From Dyadobacter chenhuakuii (GTDB lineage Bacteria > Bacteroidota > Bacteroidia > Cytophagales > Spirosomataceae): DNA of 64,000 nt. The notes beneath the pieces were generated by a model. It made no database searches. It was not told where the DNA came from and worked only from the letters and a program-made list of their open reading frames with translations. The DNA lies in NCBI RefSeq assembly GCF_023821985.2, contig NZ_CP098805.1, positions 5,447,001 to 5,511,000 of the forward strand, in the 5' to 3' direction. Below are positions 49,583 to 59,972 of the stretch, one piece after another (position 1 is the stretch's first letter; every line of letters begins with the position of its first letter). The position numbers were made by a program, and so were the translations under genes.

Positions 49583-50794
49583 TTAATACTCATGCGGCAG
49601 CGGCACATTGATCCGCTCATTCCAAGTCAACCCATGCTGGTTTAGCAAGTCCATAAATGGATCCGGGTTAAGCTCTTCTACATTGTAAACGCCTGGCTTC
49701 ATCCATTCTTCATTAGTGAGCATCAGCATTGCGCCGATCATGGCTGGGACGCCGGTGGTGTAACTTACTGCTTGTGCGCGGACTTCGCGATAGCATTCGG
49801 CGTGGTCGCAGTTGTTCCAGACGTAATAGGTTTTTTCTTCACCACCTTCGATGCCTTTGATCTGGCAACCGATGGATGTTTGGCCTGAATAATTTTCTCC
49901 CAACGAATCCGGTGCCGGAAGCACGGCTTTCAGGAATTCAAGCGGGACAATGTCCATGCCATTGAATTTGATGGGCTTAATGCTTGTCATACCCACATTT
50001 TCAAGCACATTTAAATGCGTGATATAAGCCTGGCCGAATGTCATCCAGAAACGCGCGCGCTTCAATGTCGGGAAGTTTTTTACAAGGGATTCCAGTTCTT
50101 CGTGGTAAAGCACATAGCTCTCTTTCGGTCCGATTCCGGGATATTCGATAGGCTTGTGAATGGACATCGCAGGAATTTCAATCCACTCGCCATTTTCCCA
50201 GTAACGACCTGGCTGGGTAATCTCACGGATGTTGATCTCCGGATTGAAGTTCGTTGCAAATGCTTTCCCGTGATCGCCTGCATTACAGTCGATGATGTCC
50301 AGGTAATGCATTTCATCAAAATGATGTTTATTGGCATATGCAGTGAAAACCTGCGTTACGCCCGGATCGAAGCCGCAGCCCAAAACGGCCATTAAACCTG
50401 CCTCTTTAAATCTTTCCTGATAAGCCCATTGCCAGCTGTATTCAAACTTGGCAACATCTTTTGGCTCATAATTGGCTGTGTCCAGATAATGTACACCCGT
50501 TGCCAGACATGCCTCCATAATCGTCAGATCCTGATAAGGCAAGGCAACATTGATCAGTAACTTTGGTTGAAAACGTTTGATCAGAAGCACTGTTTCTGCA
50601 ACGATATCTGCATCAACTTGTGCCGTTTGAATGGTGACACCGTGCATTTCCTGAATTTCAGCAGCGATTTTATCGCACTTCGATTTGGTACGGCTGGCCA
50701 GCATAATTTCCGTAAAAACATTGCTGTTCAGCGCACATTTATGGGCTACAACACTTCCAACCCCACCTGCACCAATGATCAGAACCTTAGACAT
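49583..50794 (-). CDS. Carboxynorspermidine synthase-like (saccharopine dehydrogenase family)
   Basis: A 403-residue NAD(P)-binding enzyme. It starts KVLIIGAGGVGSVVAHKCAL, and has NVALPYQDLTIMEACLATGVHYLDTANYEP, GCGFDPGVTQVFTAYA and CNAGDHGKAFATNFNPEINI, which match carboxynorspermidine dehydrogenase rather than lysine-pathway saccharopine reductases. It would reduce the Schiff base of aspartate semialdehyde and a diamine in the alternative polyamine route. No decarboxylase partner (nspC) is in the window. Its promoter (50861-50890) and a hairpin (50814-50847) are separately listed. Confidence 0.88.
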   Translation of the reverse strand: MSKVLIIGAGGVGSVVAHKCALNSNVFTEIMLASRTKSKCDKIAAEIQEMHGVTIQTAQVDADIVAETVLLIKRFQPKLLINVALPYQDLTIMEACLATGVHYLDTANYEPKDVAKFEYSWQWAYQERFKEAGLMAVLGCGFDPGVTQVFTAYANKHHFDEMHYLDIIDCNAGDHGKAFATNFNPEINIREITQPGRYWENGEWIEIPAMSIHKPIEYPGIGPKESYVLYHEELESLVKNFPTLKRARFWMTFGQAYITHLNVLENVGMTSIKPIKFNGMDIVPLEFLKAVLPAPDSLGENYSGQTSIGCQIKGIEGGEEKTYYVWNNCDHAECYREVRAQAVSYTTGVPAMIGAMLMLTNEEWMKPGVYNVEELNPDPFMDLLNQHGLTWNERINVPLPHEY

Positions 50795-50813
50795 TTTGTT
50801 TCGTTTAAGTTAA

Positions 50814-50847
50814 AAGACTTCCCAGGTTTTGAAATCTGGAAAGTCTT
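50814..50847 (-). terminator. Hairpin in the leader of the carboxynorspermidine synthase-like gene
   Basis: An 11-of-12-pair stem (AAGACTTCCCAG / CTGGAAAGTCTT) with a 10-base loop, followed on the minus strand by four T. It lies after the PQQ-dehydrogenase gene but also after the next gene's promoter and 20 bases before its ATG, so it may act as a terminator or an attenuator. Confidence 0.5.
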
Positions 50848-50860
50848 GTCGAATATCCCG

Positions 50861-50890
50861 CAAAGATAGAATGACCGCTTAAACTTTCAA
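50861..50890 (-). promoter_or_regulatory. Bacteroidota-type promoter of the carboxynorspermidine synthase-like gene
   Basis: On the minus strand TTG (50890-50888), a 19-base spacer and TATCTTTG (50868-50861) match the Bacteroidota consensus -33 / -7 arrangement. The TTG overlaps the end of the preceding gene. The expected start of transcription is near 50854. Confidence 0.65.
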
Positions 50891-52092
50891 TTTAAATTTC
50901 CGTTAACCAGCTTCATTATCTTGCCTTCGCCGTAATTCAGATAGTAAACCTCACCGCTCAGATCCTGGGCGAAGGAAGAAATAGCACCTTTGCTTTCAAA
51001 CAGCATGGCATTGCTCTTCTTTTTGTCACCATCCAGTTCCAGCGCCCAGATTCTTCCGCTGGCAAAATCGCCATATATGTATTTGCCTGCCAAACTTTTA
51101 ATGGATGTTCCCCTGTAAACGTAGCCGCCAGTTATAGATCTGTCGCCATTGCTTTGGACATAATCATGGATCGGTTCGATAAGGCCCTGTCCATTGCAAT
51201 TGGATGAAGGCTCGTAGCAATCCACTCCTTCTTTGAGCTTCCAGCCGTAATTTCCACCTTTGGTAATGATGTCAATTTCTTCGCGCTTGTTCTGCCCTAC
51301 ATCCCCGGCAAAAAGGCGGCCATTATCCATATCAAAGCTGATCCGCCAGGGATTCCGCAGACCATAAGCATATATTTCAGGCAGGAAACCATCATTATTT
51401 CCAACCGGATATGGATTATCTGCGGGAATGCCATAATTGCCTTTTCCAGTCCCGTTGACATCCACACGAAGGATTTTTCCCAGCATTGATTTACGGTTTT
51501 GCGCATTGTTTTGCGGGTCACCGCCGCTGCCGCCATCGCCTGTGGCAATGTACAAAAAGCCATCCTTGCCGAATTGCATCGAGCCGCCATTGTGGTTATC
51601 GTAAGGCTGGTTAAATGTAAACAGGACCGTTTCGCTGGAAGGATCGGCGCGTTCAGCTGTGGCTGTGGAGGCTTTGTAGCGTGCTATGACGGTTTTTAAA
51701 GGATTTCCGGCCGTGTAATTAAGATAAAAGAAGCCGTTGGTCTTGAAATCCGGATGGAAAGCCAGCCCGAGCAGGCCGCGTTCACCGCCATCCTGGACTT
51801 TGTTTTTAATATCTAAAAAAACAGCGCTGCTTGAAACAGTCGCATTGTTTTGAAAAACCCTGATAACTCCCGACTGCTCAACAACGAAAAAACGGGTGCT
51901 ATCTCCGGGAATCTGCTTCATATCCACCGGATCTACAAATTTCAAGGCAGGGAACGTATCTTTGGTTTTAAGGGTCGTATCGGCGTTTCCGATTGTGCCG
52001 GGGTCCTCTGTAATATCCTTGTCCTTGGAACAGGAAGTGGTTGCGACGCCTAATAACAGAAGGAAGAATATTGGAAAAGAATAAAGGCTCAT
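50887..52092 (-). CDS. PQQ-dependent sugar dehydrogenase (lipoprotein)
   Basis: A 401-residue lipoprotein with lipobox TTSC (Cys21). The rest is a six-bladed beta propeller of the soluble glucose/sorbosone dehydrogenase family: GLLGLAFHPDFKTNGFFYL, PYDNHNGGSMQFGKDGFLYI, YAYGLRNPWRISFD, and GGNYGWKLKEG are typical. It would oxidise sugars or alcohols in the periplasm with PQQ. The start codon is buried in an inverted repeat (52080-52132). There is no other possible start nearby. It follows eboF on the same strand. Confidence 0.9.
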   Translation of the reverse strand: MSLYSFPIFFLLLLGVATTSCSKDKDITEDPGTIGNADTTLKTKDTFPALKFVDPVDMKQIPGDSTRFFVVEQSGVIRVFQNNATVSSSAVFLDIKNKVQDGGERGLLGLAFHPDFKTNGFFYLNYTAGNPLKTVIARYKASTATAERADPSSETVLFTFNQPYDNHNGGSMQFGKDGFLYIATGDGGSGGDPQNNAQNRKSMLGKILRVDVNGTGKGNYGIPADNPYPVGNNDGFLPEIYAYGLRNPWRISFDMDNGRLFAGDVGQNKREEIDIITKGGNYGWKLKEGVDCYEPSSNCNGQGLIEPIHDYVQSNGDRSITGGYVYRGTSIKSLAGKYIYGDFASGRIWALELDGDKKKSNAMLFESKGAISSFAQDLSGEVYYLNYGEGKIMKLVNGNLN

Positions 52093-52132
52093 GACGTTGA
52101 AGTTTTATTTAACAACGTGATGAGCCTTTATT
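52080..52132 (-). promoter_or_regulatory. Long hairpin covering the start codon of the sugar dehydrogenase gene
   Basis: Arms 52080-52099 and 52113-52132 pair at 19 of 20 positions around a 13-base loop. On the minus strand the ATG of the dehydrogenase (52092-52090) lies inside the 3' arm. The structure begins 17 bases after the eboF stop and may serve as its terminator or as a block on translation. Confidence 0.6.
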
Positions 52133-52149
52133 TGTTTCAGCAAAGTGTT

Positions 52150-53514
52150 TTAAGTCAGATGCTTCCAGATCACATCATAAACGTCTACTGCTTCGATCTC
52201 GGGTTTTCCGGGAGCAGAATCTGTAACCAGGATCGGATAAAATTCTTTGGGAACATGAATGCTTCCGTGCGAGCCCTTTACCAATGTTGCGTCAAGTGGG
52301 ATAACGTCCATTAAATATCTGAAACCCATCAATTTACGTGCTAACTTATATCCGGCACGTAGCTTAATCAGCGGATTTTTTGGGTCCATAAACATTTCTA
52401 CAGGATCGTAGCCAGGCTTCCGGTGAATATCTACCAAATGCGCGTAATCCGGCGCCTTGGCGTCGTCGAGCCAGTAATAATAGGTAAACCAACTGTCGGG
52501 CTTAGCCATAATAACCAGGTCGCCGGCGCGTTCGTGGTCAATGTGATATGCTTTTTGTGCTTCTCTATCTAAAATCAGGTCAATGCCCGGGACTTTCTTC
52601 AATGCATTGATAACCTGATCTTTCACAGATTCATCATTCAAATATACATGTGCAATCTGGTGATCCGCAGTGGCAAATGCTTTCGAAATTCCCGCGTCCA
52701 GCAGTTCATACCAACGTTCTGTCCGAACTGAAATCAAGCCTTCATTTCTTAAAATCCGGTTGATATGGATCGGGTTGCTCACCGGATTGATGCCATATTC
52801 TGAAAGTAAAATGATCTTGGCATTGCGCGCCTCGTAAAACTGGATCAGCTCCGCAACCACGTCGTCGATCTCTTTCAGCTCATTGCTGATTTTGGAAAAG
52901 TCAGGCCCGAATTTCTGTAAACAATAATCCAGGTGCGGCAGGTAAATCAGCGTTAATGTTGGATTATGCTTCTTTTCAACCCACATCGACGAGTCTGCGA
53001 TCCATTTTGTAGACTTAATGTTGGCATTAGGCCCCCAGAAATTAAAGAGCGGAAATTGCCCCAGATCTTTTTGCAGCTCATCCCGCAGTTCGGGCGGATA
53101 GGCGTAACAATCGGGCGCTTTCACGCCATCTGCGTGATACTGCGGGCGCGGTGTTACCGAAAAATCGGCGGTTGAGTACATATTATACCACCAAAACATC
53201 TTCGCGCAAGTGAAATTCGGATCCAGCTTTTTGGCCGCATCCCAGATCTTTTCCCCTTTTACAAGCTTGTTGGACTGTTTCCAGAACTTAATTTCTGAAT
53301 CCTCACGGTCATACCAGCCATTCCCGACAATCCCGTTTTCAGCGGGCCATTTGCCGGTAATGTAAGTGCTTTGAGATGTGGTCGTGACGGCAGGAAGAAC
53401 TGGTTTAATCGGAGTTAAATGCCTGTTCTTTAAATATTTGGCAAGGAACGGAGTATGTTCACCGATCAGGTTTGCACTTAAACCTACGATGTCAATAACG
53501 ACTGTTTTATTCAT
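52150..53514 (-). CDS. eboF: EboF: alkaline-phosphatase-superfamily protein of the ebo cluster
   Basis: A 454-residue phosphodiesterase/nucleotide pyrophosphatase-like protein. It begins MNKTVVIDIVGLSANLIG with the first metal aspartate. The nucleophile is probably a threonine in PAVTTTSQSTYITGKWP. ENGIVGNGWYD, LLSEYGIN and an HGSIHVP region contribute other metal ligands. There is no signal peptide. It overlaps eboE by eight bases, and it is the last gene of the ebo cluster. A processing role on a phosphorylated or pyrophosphate intermediate is inferred from the family. Confidence 0.88.
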   Translation of the reverse strand: MNKTVVIDIVGLSANLIGEHTPFLAKYLKNRHLTPIKPVLPAVTTTSQSTYITGKWPAENGIVGNGWYDREDSEIKFWKQSNKLVKGEKIWDAAKKLDPNFTCAKMFWWYNMYSTADFSVTPRPQYHADGVKAPDCYAYPPELRDELQKDLGQFPLFNFWGPNANIKSTKWIADSSMWVEKKHNPTLTLIYLPHLDYCLQKFGPDFSKISNELKEIDDVVAELIQFYEARNAKIILLSEYGINPVSNPIHINRILRNEGLISVRTERWYELLDAGISKAFATADHQIAHVYLNDESVKDQVINALKKVPGIDLILDREAQKAYHIDHERAGDLVIMAKPDSWFTYYYWLDDAKAPDYAHLVDIHRKPGYDPVEMFMDPKNPLIKLRAGYKLARKLMGFRYLMDVIPLDATLVKGSHGSIHVPKEFYPILVTDSAPGKPEIEAVDVYDVIWKHLT

Positions 53515-54709
53515 AACTAAGTATTTTCTTCACCCATTCAATTTCACGAACGATTGAATCGCCAATGGGTTTCTGCATATCTTCGGGCAAAACGCCCCAG
53601 GTGTAAGTCTCGACTTCCAAAAATGCCGAAAAAGGCTTTTTCCGGTGAATAGCAAGTGTTTTAATGATATCGCCCTGTGTCGATTCCAGCACGCCATAGG
53701 AATGGATAAAAAGAGGAACGTGGAAATGGACGCGCCATTCTTTCTGCTTATCATTCCAGTCCGTTAGTGCTTCTTTCAGGTCCGGATAATGGGTTTTCGT
53801 TTCGTCCTCATTCAAAGCCACAACCTGATGCAGGTAAACGGGCTCGTCGAATGTTTCAATCGCTTTGAGCTTGATCTCTTTTTCATTTGAAAAATTAACC
53901 TTCAACGCTGAACTCACCTGGATCCTGCCCACCTGAATTCCGACCTCATCCAGCGAAGCCAGGATTTCTTCGGGATTTTCATAACCCACCGCTGCATGAC
54001 AAATGTCGTAGCAAAGCTGAATGTGCTTTAAAATAATGTCCCTGCCTTCCTCGGAAGTTGCATTGTATTTATTTGATAGATAAGCAGTTCCTCTTGGCAA
54101 AAGCACATCTCGATACCATTTTACAAAATCAACGGCATTGTCAAGAATGCCATCGGGTTCGGGTTCAATGTCAAGATGCAGCAGCTTGCCGGTTGTTTTC
54201 TCAATTTTGATCAGCTCGTCCAGCAATTGCAGAATGTGATCGGTTGCCTGCTCGGTAGCATTGATATTTTCCTCCATCGTTGTCCACCACAAGCGATAAG
54301 ACAGCGGCGGCGTAGAAACGCCTCCATGCATTCCTTCCGGAAGCAGTTCAGATAGAATATTAAAAAGGCGGATTGTATAGTTTAACCGATCGGTCGTTGT
54401 CCAGTCGGGTGTATGCACATTGTCCTTGACCACCGTGTTGTGGAAGCCACCATATGGAAAGCCGTTGATCACAAAAACATACACATCCTGTTCATTAAGC
54501 CAGTTTTTGAATTCCTGTAAAACCTCCGGCTTGCTCAGTTCCACAGACGCTTCATTCGCAACGCGAAGGCCAAGGCCAAACGGCTGTCCGGGTGCCAGTT
54601 GCTCCCTGATGTATGGAATGTTGTCTTGCAGCGATTTGAAATGGTCAGCCCATTTTTCACCGGGATGAATGTTGCTGCAATAAGTTAAATGTCCGTAAGG
54701 CGTGATCAT
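53507..54709 (-). CDS. eboE: EboE: xylose-isomerase-like TIM-barrel protein of the ebo cluster
   Basis: A 400-residue protein starting MITPYGHLTYCSNIHPGE, the typical EboE N-terminus. Further conserved segments include GLRVANEASVELS, INGFPYGGFHNTVVKDNVHTPDW, LLHLDIEPEPDGIL, CYDICHAAVGYE and HFHVPLFIHSYG, which supply His, Glu and Asp ligands for a metal-dependent isomerase or lyase barrel. The substrate is unknown. It overlaps eboD by four bases (ATGA) and eboF by eight. Confidence 0.9.
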   Translation of the reverse strand: MITPYGHLTYCSNIHPGEKWADHFKSLQDNIPYIREQLAPGQPFGLGLRVANEASVELSKPEVLQEFKNWLNEQDVYVFVINGFPYGGFHNTVVKDNVHTPDWTTTDRLNYTIRLFNILSELLPEGMHGGVSTPPLSYRLWWTTMEENINATEQATDHILQLLDELIKIEKTTGKLLHLDIEPEPDGILDNAVDFVKWYRDVLLPRGTAYLSNKYNATSEEGRDIILKHIQLCYDICHAAVGYENPEEILASLDEVGIQVGRIQVSSALKVNFSNEKEIKLKAIETFDEPVYLHQVVALNEDETKTHYPDLKEALTDWNDKQKEWRVHFHVPLFIHSYGVLESTQGDIIKTLAIHRKKPFSAFLEVETYTWGVLPEDMQKPIGDSIVREIEWVKKILSYE

Positions 54710-55881
54710 AATGCATGAATGATTTTTGTTCCTTCCAGATAATCAACCGATTGTGCGATAATGTTGGCGTCCAGCTCATGAACTTCGACGCCCTTTCCTA
54801 TTTTTTCCAAAAGCATAATGGTGAGTCTTCCGCCCAAATGCTCACGGAACTCGTTCAGGCCATTACGCAGGTTTATTTTATCGTTTTCAGAGAGTTTTGG
54901 ATGAAAAAGGTCAAAACCTAATTTCCCCAGAACATCCAGGATACGGTTCAGTTCTGTTTCTGACAGCTTCCCGATTTTGGCAGCATAAACACAATCCAGC
55001 GCAATGCCAATCGCCACCGCTTCTCCGTGGCGCACCTGAAAACCAGTCAGAAATTCAAGCTTATGCGCTGCCCAGTGACCGAAATCCAGTGGCCGGGAAG
55101 AACCGAATTCGAAAGGATCACCGCCTGCTATATGGTCCGTGTGCATTTCTGCGCAGCGATGGATCAGGTAAGCCATAGCTGCCTCGTCGCGGTTTGCCAA
55201 TGCGGAAGTGTGTTCTTCTATCCACTCAAAAAATGAAGCGTCCTTAATCAATGCAACCTTGATCGCTTCCGAAACGCCGCCCCGCCAGTCGCGGTCATCC
55301 AGCGTTCTCAATAAAGTCAGATCATTGAATACGGCAACCGGAGGCGCAAATGTGCCCAGGAAGTTCTTTTTGCCGCGGAAATTGATGCTGTTTTTAACGC
55401 CGACACCAGAATCGTTTTGAGATAAAACCGTTGTCGGGATGCGGATCAGTTTAATGCCCCTGTGTGAAACAGCGGCTGCGTAACCGACCAGATCCAGCAC
55501 CGCGCCGCCTCCTATGCCAATGATAAACGAGTGTCTGTCAATGCCATAAGTGTCAACCGCCTCAACAAGGCTTTCGAAAAGGGCCGGATCATTTTTACAA
55601 GCTTCACCGCCGGGCACGATAATGATTTCCGGAGCAAGCTGGATATGGGAAACCGATGCAGCAAAATAGGACTGGATCTGGTTGGATAAATCGGGATGAT
55701 ATTGAGCAAACCCCTCGTCCACAATCACTAACGCTTTGCGCTGGAAGCCCTGCTCGGTGTATTCGTTGAAAAAGTCTTGAAGCAAAGGGTTTTTTGTATC
55801 AAATAAATTTTCGGTAAAGAATACTGAATAATTGTATTCTACCTGGAAACGCTGTTGTATGGTTTGCATTGAAATCGACAT
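54706..55881 (-). CDS. eboD: EboD: sugar-phosphate cyclase (3-dehydroquinate synthase-like) of the ebo cluster
   Basis: A 391-residue member of the dehydroquinate synthase / 2-epi-5-epi-valiolone synthase superfamily. IIGIGGGAVLDLVGYAAAV is the NAD-binding segment; HRGIKLIRIPTTVLSQNDSG and GVKNSINFRGKKNFLG carry substrate and metal residues; LDFGHWAAHKLE holds a zinc-binding histidine and RHGEAVAIGI is conserved. It would cyclise a sugar phosphate to a cyclitol. I start at 55881 (MSISMQTIQQRF); a longer reading would run into eboC. Overlaps eboE by four bases. Confidence 0.92.
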   Translation of the reverse strand: MSISMQTIQQRFQVEYNYSVFFTENLFDTKNPLLQDFFNEYTEQGFQRKALVIVDEGFAQYHPDLSNQIQSYFAASVSHIQLAPEIIIVPGGEACKNDPALFESLVEAVDTYGIDRHSFIIGIGGGAVLDLVGYAAAVSHRGIKLIRIPTTVLSQNDSGVGVKNSINFRGKKNFLGTFAPPVAVFNDLTLLRTLDDRDWRGGVSEAIKVALIKDASFFEWIEEHTSALANRDEAAMAYLIHRCAEMHTDHIAGGDPFEFGSSRPLDFGHWAAHKLEFLTGFQVRHGEAVAIGIALDCVYAAKIGKLSETELNRILDVLGKLGFDLFHPKLSENDKINLRNGLNEFREHLGGRLTIMLLEKIGKGVEVHELDANIIAQSVDYLEGTKIIHAL

Positions 55882-55910
55882 TGGAACACGCAAAAAAGTA
55901 ATTTTTAACA

Positions 55911-56780
55911 CTAAGTTACCGCAAAAACCTTTGCTAAAAGCATTGATAAGGGCAATAACGCCAAAACCAGCAATGCCAGCGGCCACAGCCCAAAGGCAAC
56001 GCACCACGAAGCATTCATCACTATAAGAGAAATAACGCCCGCCTTCACTGCCTTACCAATTAACGGCCCGACGGGATTTTGCATTGCATTCCATAAGGGC
56101 CTGAATATGAGCCAGGCATGTAACAATATAAATGGTAATGTGTACAGCAGGTTACCATGCTCATTAGCGAATTTTAACTGGGCAAACAGCACGATCATAT
56201 ATAAGAGCGCCGCAATGTAAAGCGTCGTTTTCTTGCCGCCGTGCACCTCATCCTGGCTGATCAGCGTGATAGCACCAATGTATAAGATGGGAAAAATGGC
56301 AATCCAGGACCATTGCTGCAACGATTCGGGTAGCACACTCATACCTAAAATCAGGTTGCCACCGCGGCACATACCCATTGTTAATGGTCCTAAAATCCGG
56401 CTATGCTTCGCAAAACGGTTGTAAATCACGGTTAGCAATGCCACCACAATGGCGATCATCCCGCTTAATGCACTGAACATTGTAGCAGCGAGCACGCCAA
56501 GGAAAAGCAATGTTAAACCCATCATCGTCGCTGACCTCAGCGGCACTTTCCCGCTCGGGATAGGACGCTCGGGACGCTCGACGGCATCGAGCTTTGCGTC
56601 GAAAACATCGTTCATCACTACGCCGCCGCCATACAAACCCATGGTTGAAATGAGCAGCAGGGCAGGGTTGTAATCTGAAAAAGTAAATTGTACAATGGCC
56701 ATTCCCGCAAAAATGTCGGTGAATGCGGTTACAACATTAGCAGGACGGGTTAGCTGCAGATAGGGTTTTATGCTGCTCAC
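55911..56780 (-). CDS. eboC: EboC: UbiA-family prenyltransferase of the ebo cluster
   Basis: A 289-residue integral membrane enzyme with about eight or nine helices. The first prenyl-diphosphate binding motif is VMNDVFDAKLDAVERPERPIP (NDxxDxxxD), and the second, weaker one is ISQDEVHGGKKT. It would attach a prenyl chain to a polar acceptor, perhaps the cyclitol made by EboD. It begins one base after the eboB stop. Confidence 0.92.
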   Translation of the reverse strand: MSSIKPYLQLTRPANVVTAFTDIFAGMAIVQFTFSDYNPALLLISTMGLYGGGVVMNDVFDAKLDAVERPERPIPSGKVPLRSATMMGLTLLFLGVLAATMFSALSGMIAIVVALLTVIYNRFAKHSRILGPLTMGMCRGGNLILGMSVLPESLQQWSWIAIFPILYIGAITLISQDEVHGGKKTTLYIAALLYMIVLFAQLKFANEHGNLLYTLPFILLHAWLIFRPLWNAMQNPVGPLIGKAVKAGVISLIVMNASWCVAFGLWPLALLVLALLPLSMLLAKVFAVT

Positions 56781-56781
56781 T

Positions 56782-57807
56782 TTAATTAATAACTAATGAA
56801 TCTTTGGCCGGCACAGGTTGCTGTCCGCCTCTCAAAATGCTGTTTCCATGAAACTTTTCAGTATGGTCAATGGCATAACCCGACTCGAAATCAGTCACAT
56901 CGATCTGTCCGCTTTTGCCAAATGCATCAATCGCATTTTGGTAAGTAACAAGGCGAATCGTTTCATCTGAAATGCCACGCATTTTCATCAATGCAGCCGT
57001 CTTAGGAATGGCCAGCGGATCTGAAATGCCCCAGTCAGCCGCCGAATTGACCATAATGCGTTCAGGACCATATTGTTCCACCACTTTTACCATGCGCTCA
57101 TTGCCCATTTTGGTAAAAGGATAAATGGTAAATGCTGCCCAAAAACCTTTGTCCAGCACACTTTTGACCGTTTCCTCATTATTATGGTCCACGATCACCC
57201 ACGAAGGGTCGATGCCGTGTTCCAATGCAATGGCCATGCTGCGTTCCGTTCCTTTTTTCTTGTCGCGGTGCGGCGTGTGGATCTGCACGGGAAGTTTGGC
57301 TTTTTTTGCAAGTTCCAGCTGCAAACGGTAATATTTTTCTTCGGCGGGCGTCTGGTCGTCAAAACCAATTTCGCCCACGCCTACGACGCCTTCTTTGTAA
57401 ATGTATAACGGCAGAATTTCCATCACCTGCTCAGCCAGCGGCTCATTGTTCGCTTCCCGGGAGTTAAGCCCCATCGTGCAGTAATGTTTAATGCCAAACT
57501 GCGAAGAGCGGAATCTTTCCCAGCCCACCAGGCTGCTGTAATAATCTTTAAAGCTGGAAAGCCCCGTACGCGGCTGCCCAACCCAGAATGCAGGCTCGAT
57601 CAATGCCACAATGCCGGCTTGATGCATGGCCTGGTAATCATCAGTTGTTCGCGAAACCATGTGGATATGCGGGTCAAAAAAGCGCATTCCTTTGATCAGG
57701 TCTTTGTAGTCGTTCCAGGCAATGTCGCGGTGCGCAGGAGTTGCCGTTTCTTCGCTGTCTTCAAAATGCGAAGGATTGGGTGCTATATCGTTAGTGTTAA
57801 GGCACAT
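56782..57807 (-). CDS. eboB: EboB: TatD-like metal-dependent hydrolase of the ebo cluster
   Basis: A 341-residue amidohydrolase-fold protein. Metal ligands are readable in FFDPHIHMVSR (HxH), GVGEIGFDD (Glu), VQIHTPHRDK, WVIVDHNNEETV and the late Asp in NSAADWGISDPLAI. The set is typical of TatD-type hydrolases. It begins 11 bases after eboA and ends one base before eboC. Its substrate in the pathway is unknown. Confidence 0.92.
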   Translation of the reverse strand: MCLNTNDIAPNPSHFEDSEETATPAHRDIAWNDYKDLIKGMRFFDPHIHMVSRTTDDYQAMHQAGIVALIEPAFWVGQPRTGLSSFKDYYSSLVGWERFRSSQFGIKHYCTMGLNSREANNEPLAEQVMEILPLYIYKEGVVGVGEIGFDDQTPAEEKYYRLQLELAKKAKLPVQIHTPHRDKKKGTERSMAIALEHGIDPSWVIVDHNNEETVKSVLDKGFWAAFTIYPFTKMGNERMVKVVEQYGPERIMVNSAADWGISDPLAIPKTAALMKMRGISDETIRLVTYQNAIDAFGKSGQIDVTDFESGYAIDHTEKFHGNSILRGGQQPVPAKDSLVIN

Positions 57808-57818
57808 AGGTTTAGGTG

Positions 57819-58667
57819 TCAGTGTTCGAGATCGGCCCAGGCCAGAGCGCCGGACTTAACTGATTTTTCAAGGTCAATATATTTTGCCAAAAGATAATGG
57901 GCCGGGGCAAGTGAGGAATCATTGCAAGCCAATGCAGCAGCTTTTCGGTCATCAACTTGTTCAGAATCAAATAAATGCTGCATATCAGCCAGTAATGTTG
58001 TATTCATAAACCTGCCCGCCAGCCGCCAAACCTGCGCCGGAACGCTCCTTCCTGCGGCCCACCGTTCGTGCGCGAAGTCGGAAAGTGTCATCGCAAGTTT
58101 CTCGTTTGCACGATTGTCGAGGCCTTCTATGAAATGAATAGGTTTATCATTGAATATGGTTTTCAAAACCAGCTGGTTCCAGGCCAGTTCGCTGAAATGT
58201 TTCTCCGGGTAAGGGTTATGCAATGCTATGGCGTCAAAAACGAAGCCCATATTGGAGCGGACCGCATCGGTGGCCCTGAAAAGCCATTGGTCGGGGTAGG
58301 AAAGCACGGGTAATGCAGCATAAAGCGCCACCAGTTCATTCATTTCGGCCGTGTCGAAGAGCGTTTCAATGTCTTTGACATAATCCTCCTTGTCGGAAGG
58401 ATCAAGCTGGGTCAGTAACCAAACCCTTGCAAGCCGGACCAGCGACCAGCCTTCCACCGAAAATCCGGGGATTTCAGCATTCAGCGCAAATTGCTGATCT
58501 TGATTTATGAAAATGATCTTTTTGGAAAGAAACCTTGGTGCCGCAACGAAAGCCGTCATCAAATCCATCCGGCTCGACGCAGCTCTGTTTTGTAACCATT
58601 CAGCCTCAGATTCAGAGGTGTTGAGGACGATGATATCCCAAAGATTCTGTTTTATGATATCGGACAT
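57819..58667 (-). CDS. eboA: EboA family protein, first gene of the ebo cluster
   Basis: A 282-residue soluble, mainly helical protein of the EboA family. WSLVRLARVWLLTQL, LPVLSYPDQWLFRATDAVRS, FDAIALHNPYPEKHFSELAWNQLVLK (conserved core, split) and DNRANEKLAMTLSDFAHERWAAGR are the typical segments. It has no recognised enzyme motif. The five genes after it (eboB to eboF) are in the same orientation with minimal spacing, so all six are likely one transcript. The 209 bases upstream show no clear promoter. Confidence 0.88.
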   Translation of the reverse strand: MSDIIKQNLWDIIVLNTSESEAEWLQNRAASSRMDLMTAFVAAPRFLSKKIIFINQDQQFALNAEIPGFSVEGWSLVRLARVWLLTQLDPSDKEDYVKDIETLFDTAEMNELVALYAALPVLSYPDQWLFRATDAVRSNMGFVFDAIALHNPYPEKHFSELAWNQLVLKTIFNDKPIHFIEGLDNRANEKLAMTLSDFAHERWAAGRSVPAQVWRLAGRFMNTTLLADMQHLFDSEQVDDRKAAALACNDSSLAPAHYLLAKYIDLEKSVKSGALAWADLEH

Positions 58668-58876
58668 AACGAAGCAATAAAATTCCGAATTACGCGGGTT
58701 GTGGCTTTGTAAATCACTCTTGAATGTGGGTTATATTAATGATAAAGTTTTTTTTAACTATAAAGTTTCCCTCCACCGGGTTATAACGCTTTCCCGCTTT
58801 TAAAAAGACGCATGAGAAGGGTTTTTATACGCGTTTTTAATTAAAATCTAATGTTCCCGCTCTTGCTGGAAACGGA

Positions 58877-59506
58877 TCAGAAATCAAATTCAATGATCCC
58901 CTGGTCATTCAGCAAATGATGCGTCAGCTTATCGTGTTTTTTCTCTGAGCCTTGTAATGTCCAGTTTCCCGTGATCTGTCCGCCGGAACGGCTCTGCGCG
59001 CCTTGAAGGATTGTCAGGTCGTGCTCTTTAAACAATTCCTCGTACAGTTTCAGCGTCTTTTTCTGGTAAGGGCATACGACTCTGTAACTGCGGATCTGGC
59101 TTTTTTTGCGAATGAATTTCTGGATAGGCGCGAGGATTACCAGCGATAGTCCTGAAATAACGAATGTAGCAATGGTAACCCCGTAAAAACCAGCACCGAT
59201 GCCCATTCCTATCGCCGCCGTTACCCAGACAATAGCAGCCGTTGTAATGCCTACGACCCGGTTATTTTCCCGGAAGATGATCCCGGCACCGATAAAGCCA
59301 ATCCCTGTTAGAATGTTCGCCGCAATTCTTCCCGCATCTGCACTGATCTTGATGGAGAGGATTGTAAACAATGTCGATCCCACCGCAATCAGGATCATGG
59401 TCCGCAGCCCCGCCGACTTACTCCGGTATTCCCGTTCCATACCGATCACAGCTCCGAGCAAAAAGGAAGCTAGCAGCTTATAAATGTCTTCGGGCAAAAA
59501 CTCCAT
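58877..59506 (-). CDS. MgtC/SapB-family membrane protein
   Basis: A 209-residue protein. The N-terminal MgtC domain has about four to five membrane helices with FLLGAVIGMEREYRSKSAGLRTM and a GIGFIGAGIIFRENNRVVGITTAA segment. A C-terminal cytoplasmic domain of about 75 residues follows. MgtC proteins modulate magnesium homeostasis, ATP synthase or membrane potential in other bacteria. It follows the DUF5618 gene after a terminator and precedes the ebo cluster by about 200 bases; no functional link is evident. Confidence 0.92.
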   Translation of the reverse strand: MEFLPEDIYKLLASFLLGAVIGMEREYRSKSAGLRTMILIAVGSTLFTILSIKISADAGRIAANILTGIGFIGAGIIFRENNRVVGITTAAIVWVTAAIGMGIGAGFYGVTIATFVISGLSLVILAPIQKFIRKKSQIRSYRVVCPYQKKTLKLYEELFKEHDLTILQGAQSRSGGQITGNWTLQGSEKKHDKLTHHLLNDQGIIEFDF

Positions 59507-59534
59507 TTTCTAAAACCAAAGGTTGTTAAATAAC

Positions 59535-59570
59535 CAAAAGCCGGAAAGACGCTAAATCTCCCGGCTTTTG
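59535..59570 (-). terminator. Terminator of the DUF5618 gene
   Basis: A 10-bp stem CAAAAGCCGG / CCGGCTTTTG with a 16-base loop, 24 bases after the DUF5618 stop. The T-rich part lies in the 3' arm; the free T tail is short. Confidence 0.6.
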
Positions 59571-59594
59571 ATTTACTAATGCCTAATTACAATG

Positions 59595-59972
59595 CTAGGC
59601 TGCCTCACTTCTTGTTTCAACCCAGGAGATGATTTTCTCAGCTTCGTTTAGCCCAATCGCGGCGAGTCTGGCGCTTTTGGCCCCGTCATAAGCCATGTCC
59701 AAATGGAGCACCTGGTAAGTTGTCAAAAATGCATTGAGCACCTTTTTGTCGAGTTGGGAAAGATGTTGTTGGTACCAATCCACATCTTTTCGCCCTTTCC
59801 CTTTCTTGCCAAGCAAATCATCCAGCGCGACCAGAATTCCGGTGTAAGCGGTGTGACCGGCCATTTTTACGTATTTGGAATCCTGATAGTAACCGTCTTC
59901 CTTCCCTGCTTTGTCGCGAAGAATTTCCTTTGCATTGTCAATGTAACGCTTCGCCTCCTGAATTGAGCTCAT
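59595..59972 (-). CDS. DUF5618-family protein
   Basis: A 125-residue, all-helical cytoplasmic protein. SSIQEAKRYIDNAKEILRDK, YQDSKYVKMAGHTAYTGILVALDDLL and the C-terminal EAEKIISW resemble HEPN-like or DUF5618 small helical proteins common in Bacteroidota. It has no catalytic motif that I can identify. I start at 59972 (MSSIQEAKRY) rather than 60023, because the upstream part is not helix-like. It lies 63 bases after the aminopeptidase gene. Confidence 0.85.
   Translation of the reverse strand: MSSIQEAKRYIDNAKEILRDKAGKEDGYYQDSKYVKMAGHTAYTGILVALDDLLGKKGKGRKDVDWYQQHLSQLDKKVLNAFLTTYQVLHLDMAYDGAKSARLAAIGLNEAEKIISWVETRSEAA

Follow-up and report, generated by a model that had tools for sequence, protein, structure and literature searches.

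What does the six-gene ebo cluster of Dyadobacter chenhuakuii make, and what would its product be for? We addressed this question for a stretch of 64,000 nucleotides (hereafter the window; contig NZ_CP098805.1, positions 5,447,001 to 5,511,000 of the forward strand), in which an earlier note had recognised the genes eboA to eboF and suggested a prenylated cyclitol as their product. We found the six genes are a complete ABCDEF-type ebo operon on the minus strand, running from 58667 to 52150 of the window in the order eboA to eboF. The operon belongs to a kind already published, and both the ABCDEF layout and the prenylated-cyclitol idea were in print in 2016 (PMC5133447). The best explanation for it, which we hold with somewhat better than even confidence, is a pathway from EboD to EboC for a prenylated cyclitol, a lipid that would aid the movement of a metabolite over the inner membrane. 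The six genes are as follows (aa, amino acids).

eboA, 57819..58667, minus strand: 282 aa, predicted helical solenoid and possible scaffold, with an all-helical model; NF035938 (EboA domain), 185.8 bits against a cut-off of 50.
eboB, 56782..57807, minus strand: 341 aa, TatD-like metal-dependent hydrolase; PF01026 (TatD_DNase), 55.5 bits against 27.
eboC, 55911..56780, minus strand: 289 aa, GTG start, UbiA-superfamily prenyltransferase; NF035940 (equivalog), 408.7 bits against 250.
eboD, 54706..55881, minus strand: 391 aa, sugar phosphate cyclase; NF004852 (PRK06203), 593.2 bits against 333.
eboE, 53507..54709, minus strand: 400 aa, xylose-isomerase-like triosephosphate isomerase (TIM) barrel; NF035939 (equivalog), 498.3 bits against 250.
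eboF, 52150..53514, minus strand: 454 aa, alkaline-phosphatase-superfamily protein with a changed metal site; PF01663 (type I phosphodiesterase-like), 219.5 bits against 23.

The open reading frame calls and the family searches both agree with the earlier note that the cluster is complete, in order and held in one tight operon; the strand, which that note had left unstated, is added here. Its spacings are identical to those in the reading frame coordinates, with gaps of +11, +1 and +29 bases from eboA onwards followed by overlaps of 4 and 8 bases, and the +29 gap assumes an ATG at 55881 for eboD, whose longest reading frame begins at a GTG at 56007, within eboC. The enzyme classes it had named also agree with matches in NCBIfam (EboC, EboE and the EboA domain) and Pfam (EboB and EboF). 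Searching each protein against its family, as had been proposed, put EboC and EboE over their equivalog cut-offs and EboA over its domain cut-off, so that the TIM barrel lies inside EboE. For EboA, the narrower NF035937 family was reached with 210.8 bits, short of its cut-off of 320; hence, we claim EboA by domain and position and not as a member of that subfamily. EboB and EboF, for which the NCBIfam matches include no ebo-specific model, were assigned by Pfam class, position and likeness to their counterparts elsewhere.

Since NF004852 is named 3-dehydroquinate synthase, the EboD match invites the view that the operon encodes another dehydroquinate synthase, there to supply the shikimate pathway. 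We found EboD scores 231.3 bits with the aroB model TIGR01357, under its cut-off of 305, and the same genome encodes a separate AroB at 342 bits; both kinds of match occur in all 37 genomes of the genus. In an alignment of 83 EboD with five AroB from related genomes, the metal ligands, the shared lysines and the asparagine are kept throughout, while the K, R, N and K of the AroB (5/5) are H, S or A, D and E in 83/83 EboD. We take these four positions to be K250, R264, N268 and K356 in Aspergillus numbering, the last of them less surely. A published tree also sets EboD outside the dehydroquinate synthase clade (PMC5133447). Hence, EboD as the housekeeping dehydroquinate synthase is ruled out by the aroB cut-off, the separate AroB and the four changed residues, in agreement with the earlier note, and a second synthase for the shikimate pathway is very improbable. 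Because of the separate AroB and the changed residues, we think the name of NF004852 is misleading for EboD; the family is apparently an EboD family that still bears an old name, and it also matches the EboD of an alpha-proteobacterial locus (L131) with 544 bits. Since the AroB residues are changed while the metal and catalytic residues are kept, EboD looks like an intact cyclase whose substrate is most likely other than that of dehydroquinate synthase.

A further indication of what EboD contributes came from clusters that lack it. Searching plasmid sequences with the EboE protein yielded 48 records, 47 of them with most of the protein; 27 plasmid stretches were taken, of which 26 are distinct, and 22 records were left out (15 Streptomyces, four Ketogulonicigenium, two Mycetohabitans and one Streptomyces with a fragment). 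We found EboD in nine of the 26 loci (two each from Deinococcus and Salipiger, and one each from Ketogulonicigenium, Mycetohabitans, Azospirillum, Roseivivax and Aureibacter); 14 others (13 actinomycete and one Gemmatirosa) carry inositol-3-phosphate synthase along with an additional xylose-isomerase-like gene. The two cyclases occur together in none of the 26. By search, inositol-3-phosphate synthase is also held by 28 of the 31 actinomycete plasmid records with a near full-length EboE. The assignment is firm for the one copy tested, which gave Pfam scores of 164 and 102 bits and, as the best solved structure, the myo-inositol-1-phosphate synthase 1u1i (E 8.3e-68). By our own arithmetic, with 81 places that carry this synthase in 7.3 billion bases of plasmid, the chance of finding one within 10 kb of a random plasmid point is about 2 in 10,000. 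The Dyadobacter genome has no match to PF07994, and the reading frames of 80 Bacteroidota loci gave no inositol-3-phosphate synthase at E 1e-4.

In a tree of 35 of the 99 EboF, with one outgroup on a very long branch and the root not known, the Gemmatirosa protein groups with five Proteobacteria of the EboD type (support 100/98), and the cyclase label requires at least two changes on that tree. EboD and inositol-3-phosphate synthase belong to different Pfam families, and the two kinds of cyclase have unrelated folds. Two makers of cyclitols from different families thus appear to share one slot, and hence the swap supports a cyclitol as the product. Comparative evidence of this kind strengthens, in our judgement, the published cyclitol idea. 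The word inositol is absent from the main text of the ebo papers PMC5133447, PMC6282210 and PMC9235831. The open-access literature gave no other paper tying inositol-3-phosphate synthase to ebo genes, a search that mostly leaves subscription papers outside and in which the Streptomyces transcriptome papers naming SCO3242/SCO3243 were uninspected. Beside these cyclase genes we observed two further kinds of neighbour. At the Ketogulonicigenium locus (L131, 5771-7817), two genes for Gfo/Idh/MocA-type oxidoreductases lead straight into eboD, a hint of ring oxidoreduction. ScyD/ScyE-family and multicopper oxidase genes flank the clusters of the inositol-synthase type in four Streptomyces plasmids (L127, L129, L136 and L149), flanks that recall the cyanobacterial scytonemin neighbourhood.

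In the pathway that we favour, EboD would close a sugar phosphate, other than the substrate of dehydroquinate synthase, to a keto-cyclitol, whose ring would be reshaped by EboE and EboB. EboC, in the membrane, would attach a prenyl chain to give the prenylated cyclitol. EboA may serve as a helical scaffold that holds the enzymes at the membrane, and EboF, with its changed active site, may handle or bind an intermediate and would have no ordinary phosphodiesterase role. The finished lipid would then assist the passage of a small and often aromatic metabolite over the inner membrane, as has been proposed for Nostoc. We infer the individual reactions, what they yield and which client they serve in Dyadobacter. 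The earlier note's proposal of a prenylated cyclitol thus had a published precedent (PMC5133447) and gains backing from the inositol-3-phosphate synthase swap, and it is still a proposal. In Nostoc, ebo genes other than eboD are needed for moving the scytonemin monomer to the periplasm, and the ebo mutants tested keep this monomer in the cytoplasm (PMC6282210). Genes for aromatic products also occur at some actinomycete loci, with an aromatic prenyltransferase gene beside the ebo cluster of one Streptomyces plasmid (L129), genes for a monooxygenase dependent on flavin adenine dinucleotide and a methyltransferase at a second locus (L151), and polyketide aromatase genes at a third (L152), which holds only EboE of the ebo set. 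These genes fit a metabolite-moving role and are not proof of it.

Several points weigh against this pathway. Beyond the dehydroquinate synthase name of the family that EboD matches, neither cyclase was found within the stretch examined in three of the 26 plasmid loci, all from Streptomyces. Inositol-3-phosphate synthase retains the ring phosphate and sugar phosphate cyclases lose it, so the two should not yield an identical compound, and the extra isomerase always accompanies inositol-3-phosphate synthase in the plasmid loci. Among the genes adjoining the Dyadobacter operon, no client pathway was recognised. No ebo product is reported in PMC5133447, PMC6282210 or PMC9235831, and eboD is not among the ebo genes tested in Nostoc (PMC6282210). 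In addition, the substrates that Maribacter EboC farnesylated in vitro were quinoline acids, which are aromatic and not cyclitols (PMC9235831).

This last result bears on the main rival, in which EboC has an aromatic acceptor. EboE or EboB would dehydrate the EboD ring to an aromatic one (phenol or quinoline-like), which EboC would C-prenylate, as most UbiA enzymes do, so that the product would be a prenylated aromatic and no cyclitol lipid. The EboC of Maribacter, Zobellia and Algoriphagus farnesylate 8-hydroxyquinoline-2-carboxylic acid; however, six of 14 tested acceptors worked, and phenols and catechols failed (PMC9235831). The predicted EboE model (predicted local distance difference test, pLDDT, 92.8) also has the 3-dehydroshikimate dehydratase AsbF among its Foldseek neighbours, together with keto-sugar hydratases, epimerases and xylose isomerase. 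Its best structural match is 5h1w (Z 23.4, root mean square deviation 2.5 over 258 aligned residues, 10% identity), and the EboE sequence gave no match to solved structures up to E 1. By its model, EboE is thus a xylose-isomerase-like barrel. Against an aromatic product, there is no obvious quinoline maker among the six ebo genes, and the clusters with inositol-3-phosphate synthase would require another route to an aromatic ring. We therefore consider the aromatic product unlikely, though a serious competitor to the prenylated cyclitol. In EboC itself, N57, D58, D61 and D65 of the first Asp-rich motif are invariant (16/16), and an S-x-x-E-V motif stands in 16/16 at what we take to be the usual place of the second Asp-rich motif of UbiA enzymes; this motif is found in only some of the plasmid rows.

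In EboF, the Thr nucleophile position is kept in 95/96 sequences (with one gap) and Asp196 in 96/96; however, a Gln (Gln200) stands at a canonical His and Glu239-Tyr240 at a canonical Asp-His pair, each in 96/96, and Val10 at the first canonical Asp in at least 93% of 72 sequences (71 from Bacteroidota loci and the window copy). We take the metal-ligand roles of these positions from phosphodiesterases of the alkaline phosphatase superfamily. We aligned EboF jointly with four other PF01663 proteins of the same genome, the best four of its ten other matches: these have D, D, H, D and H at the five ligand positions (4/4), whereas 18/18 EboF, three haloarchaeal rows included, have V, D, Q or L (16 and 2), E and Y. 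Four of the five alignable ligand positions of the canonical two-metal phosphodiesterase site are therefore changed in EboF, and because of this EboF is probably no ordinary phosphodiesterase. The sixth, late canonical His could not be aligned; we infer that His416 is its equal. Asp to Glu is a mild change, so Glu239 may still bind metal, and the published label of phosphate-substrate hydrolase is doubtful, although not disproved. His285, His289 and Asp356 are conserved in 96/96 each, and a new site built on these three residues is possible.

The departure of EboF from most canonical ligand residues would suit a second rival, that the Ebo proteins work together as an export machine bound to the membrane, without producing a small molecule themselves, and that their enzyme folds are relics for binding. 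All Nostoc ebo mutants tested build up the same intermediate, retained in the cytoplasm (PMC6282210), as such a machine would predict, and EboA resembles a helical solenoid. The EboA model has a mean pLDDT of 96.1 and consists of helices only; no Foldseek match reached E 0.001 or better, and the best structural matches are helical repeat proteins at the background level for helical proteins (Z 9.5, root mean square deviation 4.3 over 220 residues). From this model we predict a helical solenoid and claim nothing narrower. Catalytic residue sets are kept, however, in EboD (83/83) and in EboB, which is unexpected for relics: the TatD-type metal residues H47, H49, E146, H177, H208 and D258 of EboB are conserved in at least 93% of 80 sequences. 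The best solved-structure match of EboB is 3guw, the uncharacterised AF_1765 (E 5.9e-23). That another cyclitol synthase takes the place of EboD also argues against an export machine, which we regard as improbable, and the prenylated-cyclitol pathway remains our preferred explanation.

We then asked how widely the operon is kept. The earlier note described the cluster as known from cyanobacteria and scattered other bacteria, and this picture does not extend to Dyadobacter, where the cluster is core. Of 59 genomes searched, 42 have EboE over its cut-off (37/37 of the genus and 5/22 others of the order), and 41 have EboC over its own (36/37 of the genus and the same five of the order). The sole exception in the genus is a genome that is 81% complete, with an EboD-like match that starts at base 36 of a contig and EboE just after it. 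A wider and thinner sample of the phylum had EboC in 24 of 296 genomes, and the window EboC is 99% identical to that of D. alkalitolerans. For the layout, we used the best 80 of at least 575 EboC relatives, all of them Bacteroidota by title, so these counts describe that phylum. All six genes stand in ABCDEF order on one strand in 69 of the 80 loci, which makes the arrangement more than chance; every gap is below 250 bases in 57, and 11 loci are without one or more ebo genes in the stretch examined, some through contig ends. The operon is broken in four of the five genomes of the order outside the genus, with EboC, EboD and EboE on separate contigs in three (G039, G055 and G058) and EboE about 290 kb away from EboC in the fourth (G040). 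ABCDEF has been called the ancestral ebo form in Bacteroidota (PMC5133447). No phage-borne copies were found for EboE. A control genome, Haloferax volcanii, has EboC-like (E 1e-40 or better) and EboE-like (E 0.001 or better) matches that stay under the cut-offs.

Upstream of eboA, 19 of the 80 loci, mostly from Pedobacter and relatives (L069, L075, L077, L079, L087, L089 and 13 more), have on the same strand, within 115 bases, a gene for a short membrane protein (about 125 aa). In two of these loci it overlaps eboA, and none clustered from the Dyadobacter loci. This protein presumably resembles the TMEM220 family (no family search was made).

Signals for transcription around the operon were near chance, with 19 sigma-70-like sites (13.9 expected from shuffling) and 11 terminator-like sites (10.6 expected) in 50500-59700, and a Bacteroidetes-type promoter pattern had no match near eboA. 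A strong stem-loop lies at 52084-52140 of the window on the minus strand (-19.9 kcal/mol, z -6.3), between the eboF stop and the start of a gene for a sugar dehydrogenase of the pyrroloquinoline quinone (PQQ) type. Similar stems with altered letters occur in seven of the 12 Dyadobacter loci inspected; in most of them the 3' arm contains the dehydrogenase ATG. The core pattern is found at three places in the Dyadobacter genome and a control pattern at five, and a clear T run is absent in two loci (L049 and L050), so the stem is not plainly a terminator. The dehydrogenase gene itself (50887-52092, minus strand; glucose/sorbosone dehydrogenase type, PF07995, 176 bits) begins 57 bases after eboF and has a lipoprotein-like start. 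Such a gene lies within 360 bases downstream of the operon in 10 of 13 Dyadobacter loci, and PQQ-dependent sugar dehydrogenases are annotated some kilobases away from two of three haloarchaeal clusters. We make no claim that it is part of the ebo system, since relatives in other genera vary in place and strand. No scytonemin genes were recognised beside the operon; two ScyE-family proteins over cut-off lie elsewhere in the genome, far from it (G000:C1:2675944 and 1728821), and ScyA-C were not searched for.

Taken together, what is new here is the cyclase swap in actinomycete, Gemmatirosa and haloarchaeal clusters, the changed metal positions of EboF and the predicted helical solenoid of EboA. 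The swap matters since the ebo cluster is widespread and since Nostoc depends on it to bring the precursor of a sunscreen pigment over a membrane (PMC6282210). An inositol-3-phosphate synthase at the EboD place would narrow the chemistry to ring-shaped polyols, and it opens a direct genetic test by cross-complementation. More broadly, and with the balance lying about even, ebo may be a prenyl-cyclitol lipid pathway common to Bacteria and haloarchaea in which the enzyme that makes the ring is exchangeable and was swapped at least twice, and EboF may be a remodelled protein of the alkaline phosphatase superfamily. The ring would then be made by EboD in Bacteroidota, Proteobacteria and Deinococcus, and by inositol-3-phosphate synthase with its partner isomerase in actinomycetes, Gemmatirosa and haloarchaea. 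On that view, the expected EboD product would be a C6 or C7 keto-cyclitol resembling inositol, and work in Streptomyces, Haloferax or similarly tractable genera could show what the pathway makes. Should the lipid reading hold, bacteria and archaea would have this membrane carrier system in common.

To place the Dyadobacter operon among known systems, we compared it with four kinds of cluster. The ABCDEF-type operons of Bacteroidota, Cyanobacteria, Leptospira and eustigmatophyte plastids have the same six genes in the same order, with no essential difference apart from the PQQ-type dehydrogenase lipoprotein gene that follows in Dyadobacter, and Dyadobacter has been named as a possible source of the Leptospira operon (PMC5133447). 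Nostoc punctiforme has the same named proteins, likened here by name and not by sequence; however, its eboD, though nearby, is not part of the cluster and runs the opposite way, and its ebo genes sit with scytonemin genes (PMC6282210), whereas the Dyadobacter eboD is inside the operon. The SCO3242-type clusters of Streptomyces, Embleya and Nonomuraea plasmids share relatives of EboB, EboE and EboF, mostly an EboA relative, and an EboC-like prenyltransferase, but they have inositol-3-phosphate synthase and the extra xylose-isomerase-like protein in place of EboD, and the one prenyltransferase tested scores 354 bits with its own NCBI family against 120 for EboC. Finally, three haloarchaeal plasmids (Halocatena, Natronococcus and Halobaculum) hold genes for TatD, at least two xylose-isomerase-like proteins, UbiA, inositol-3-phosphate synthase and an EboF-like protein close together. 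The EboB-like and EboF-like proteins score 218 to 262 bits and 249 to 282 bits, respectively, and the EboF-like proteins carry the same changed motifs as in Dyadobacter. No EboD is annotated in them. Since the one UbiA tested is under the EboC cut-off (178 bits against 250) and EboA and EboE are likewise not annotated, these clusters are ebo-like and not ebo.

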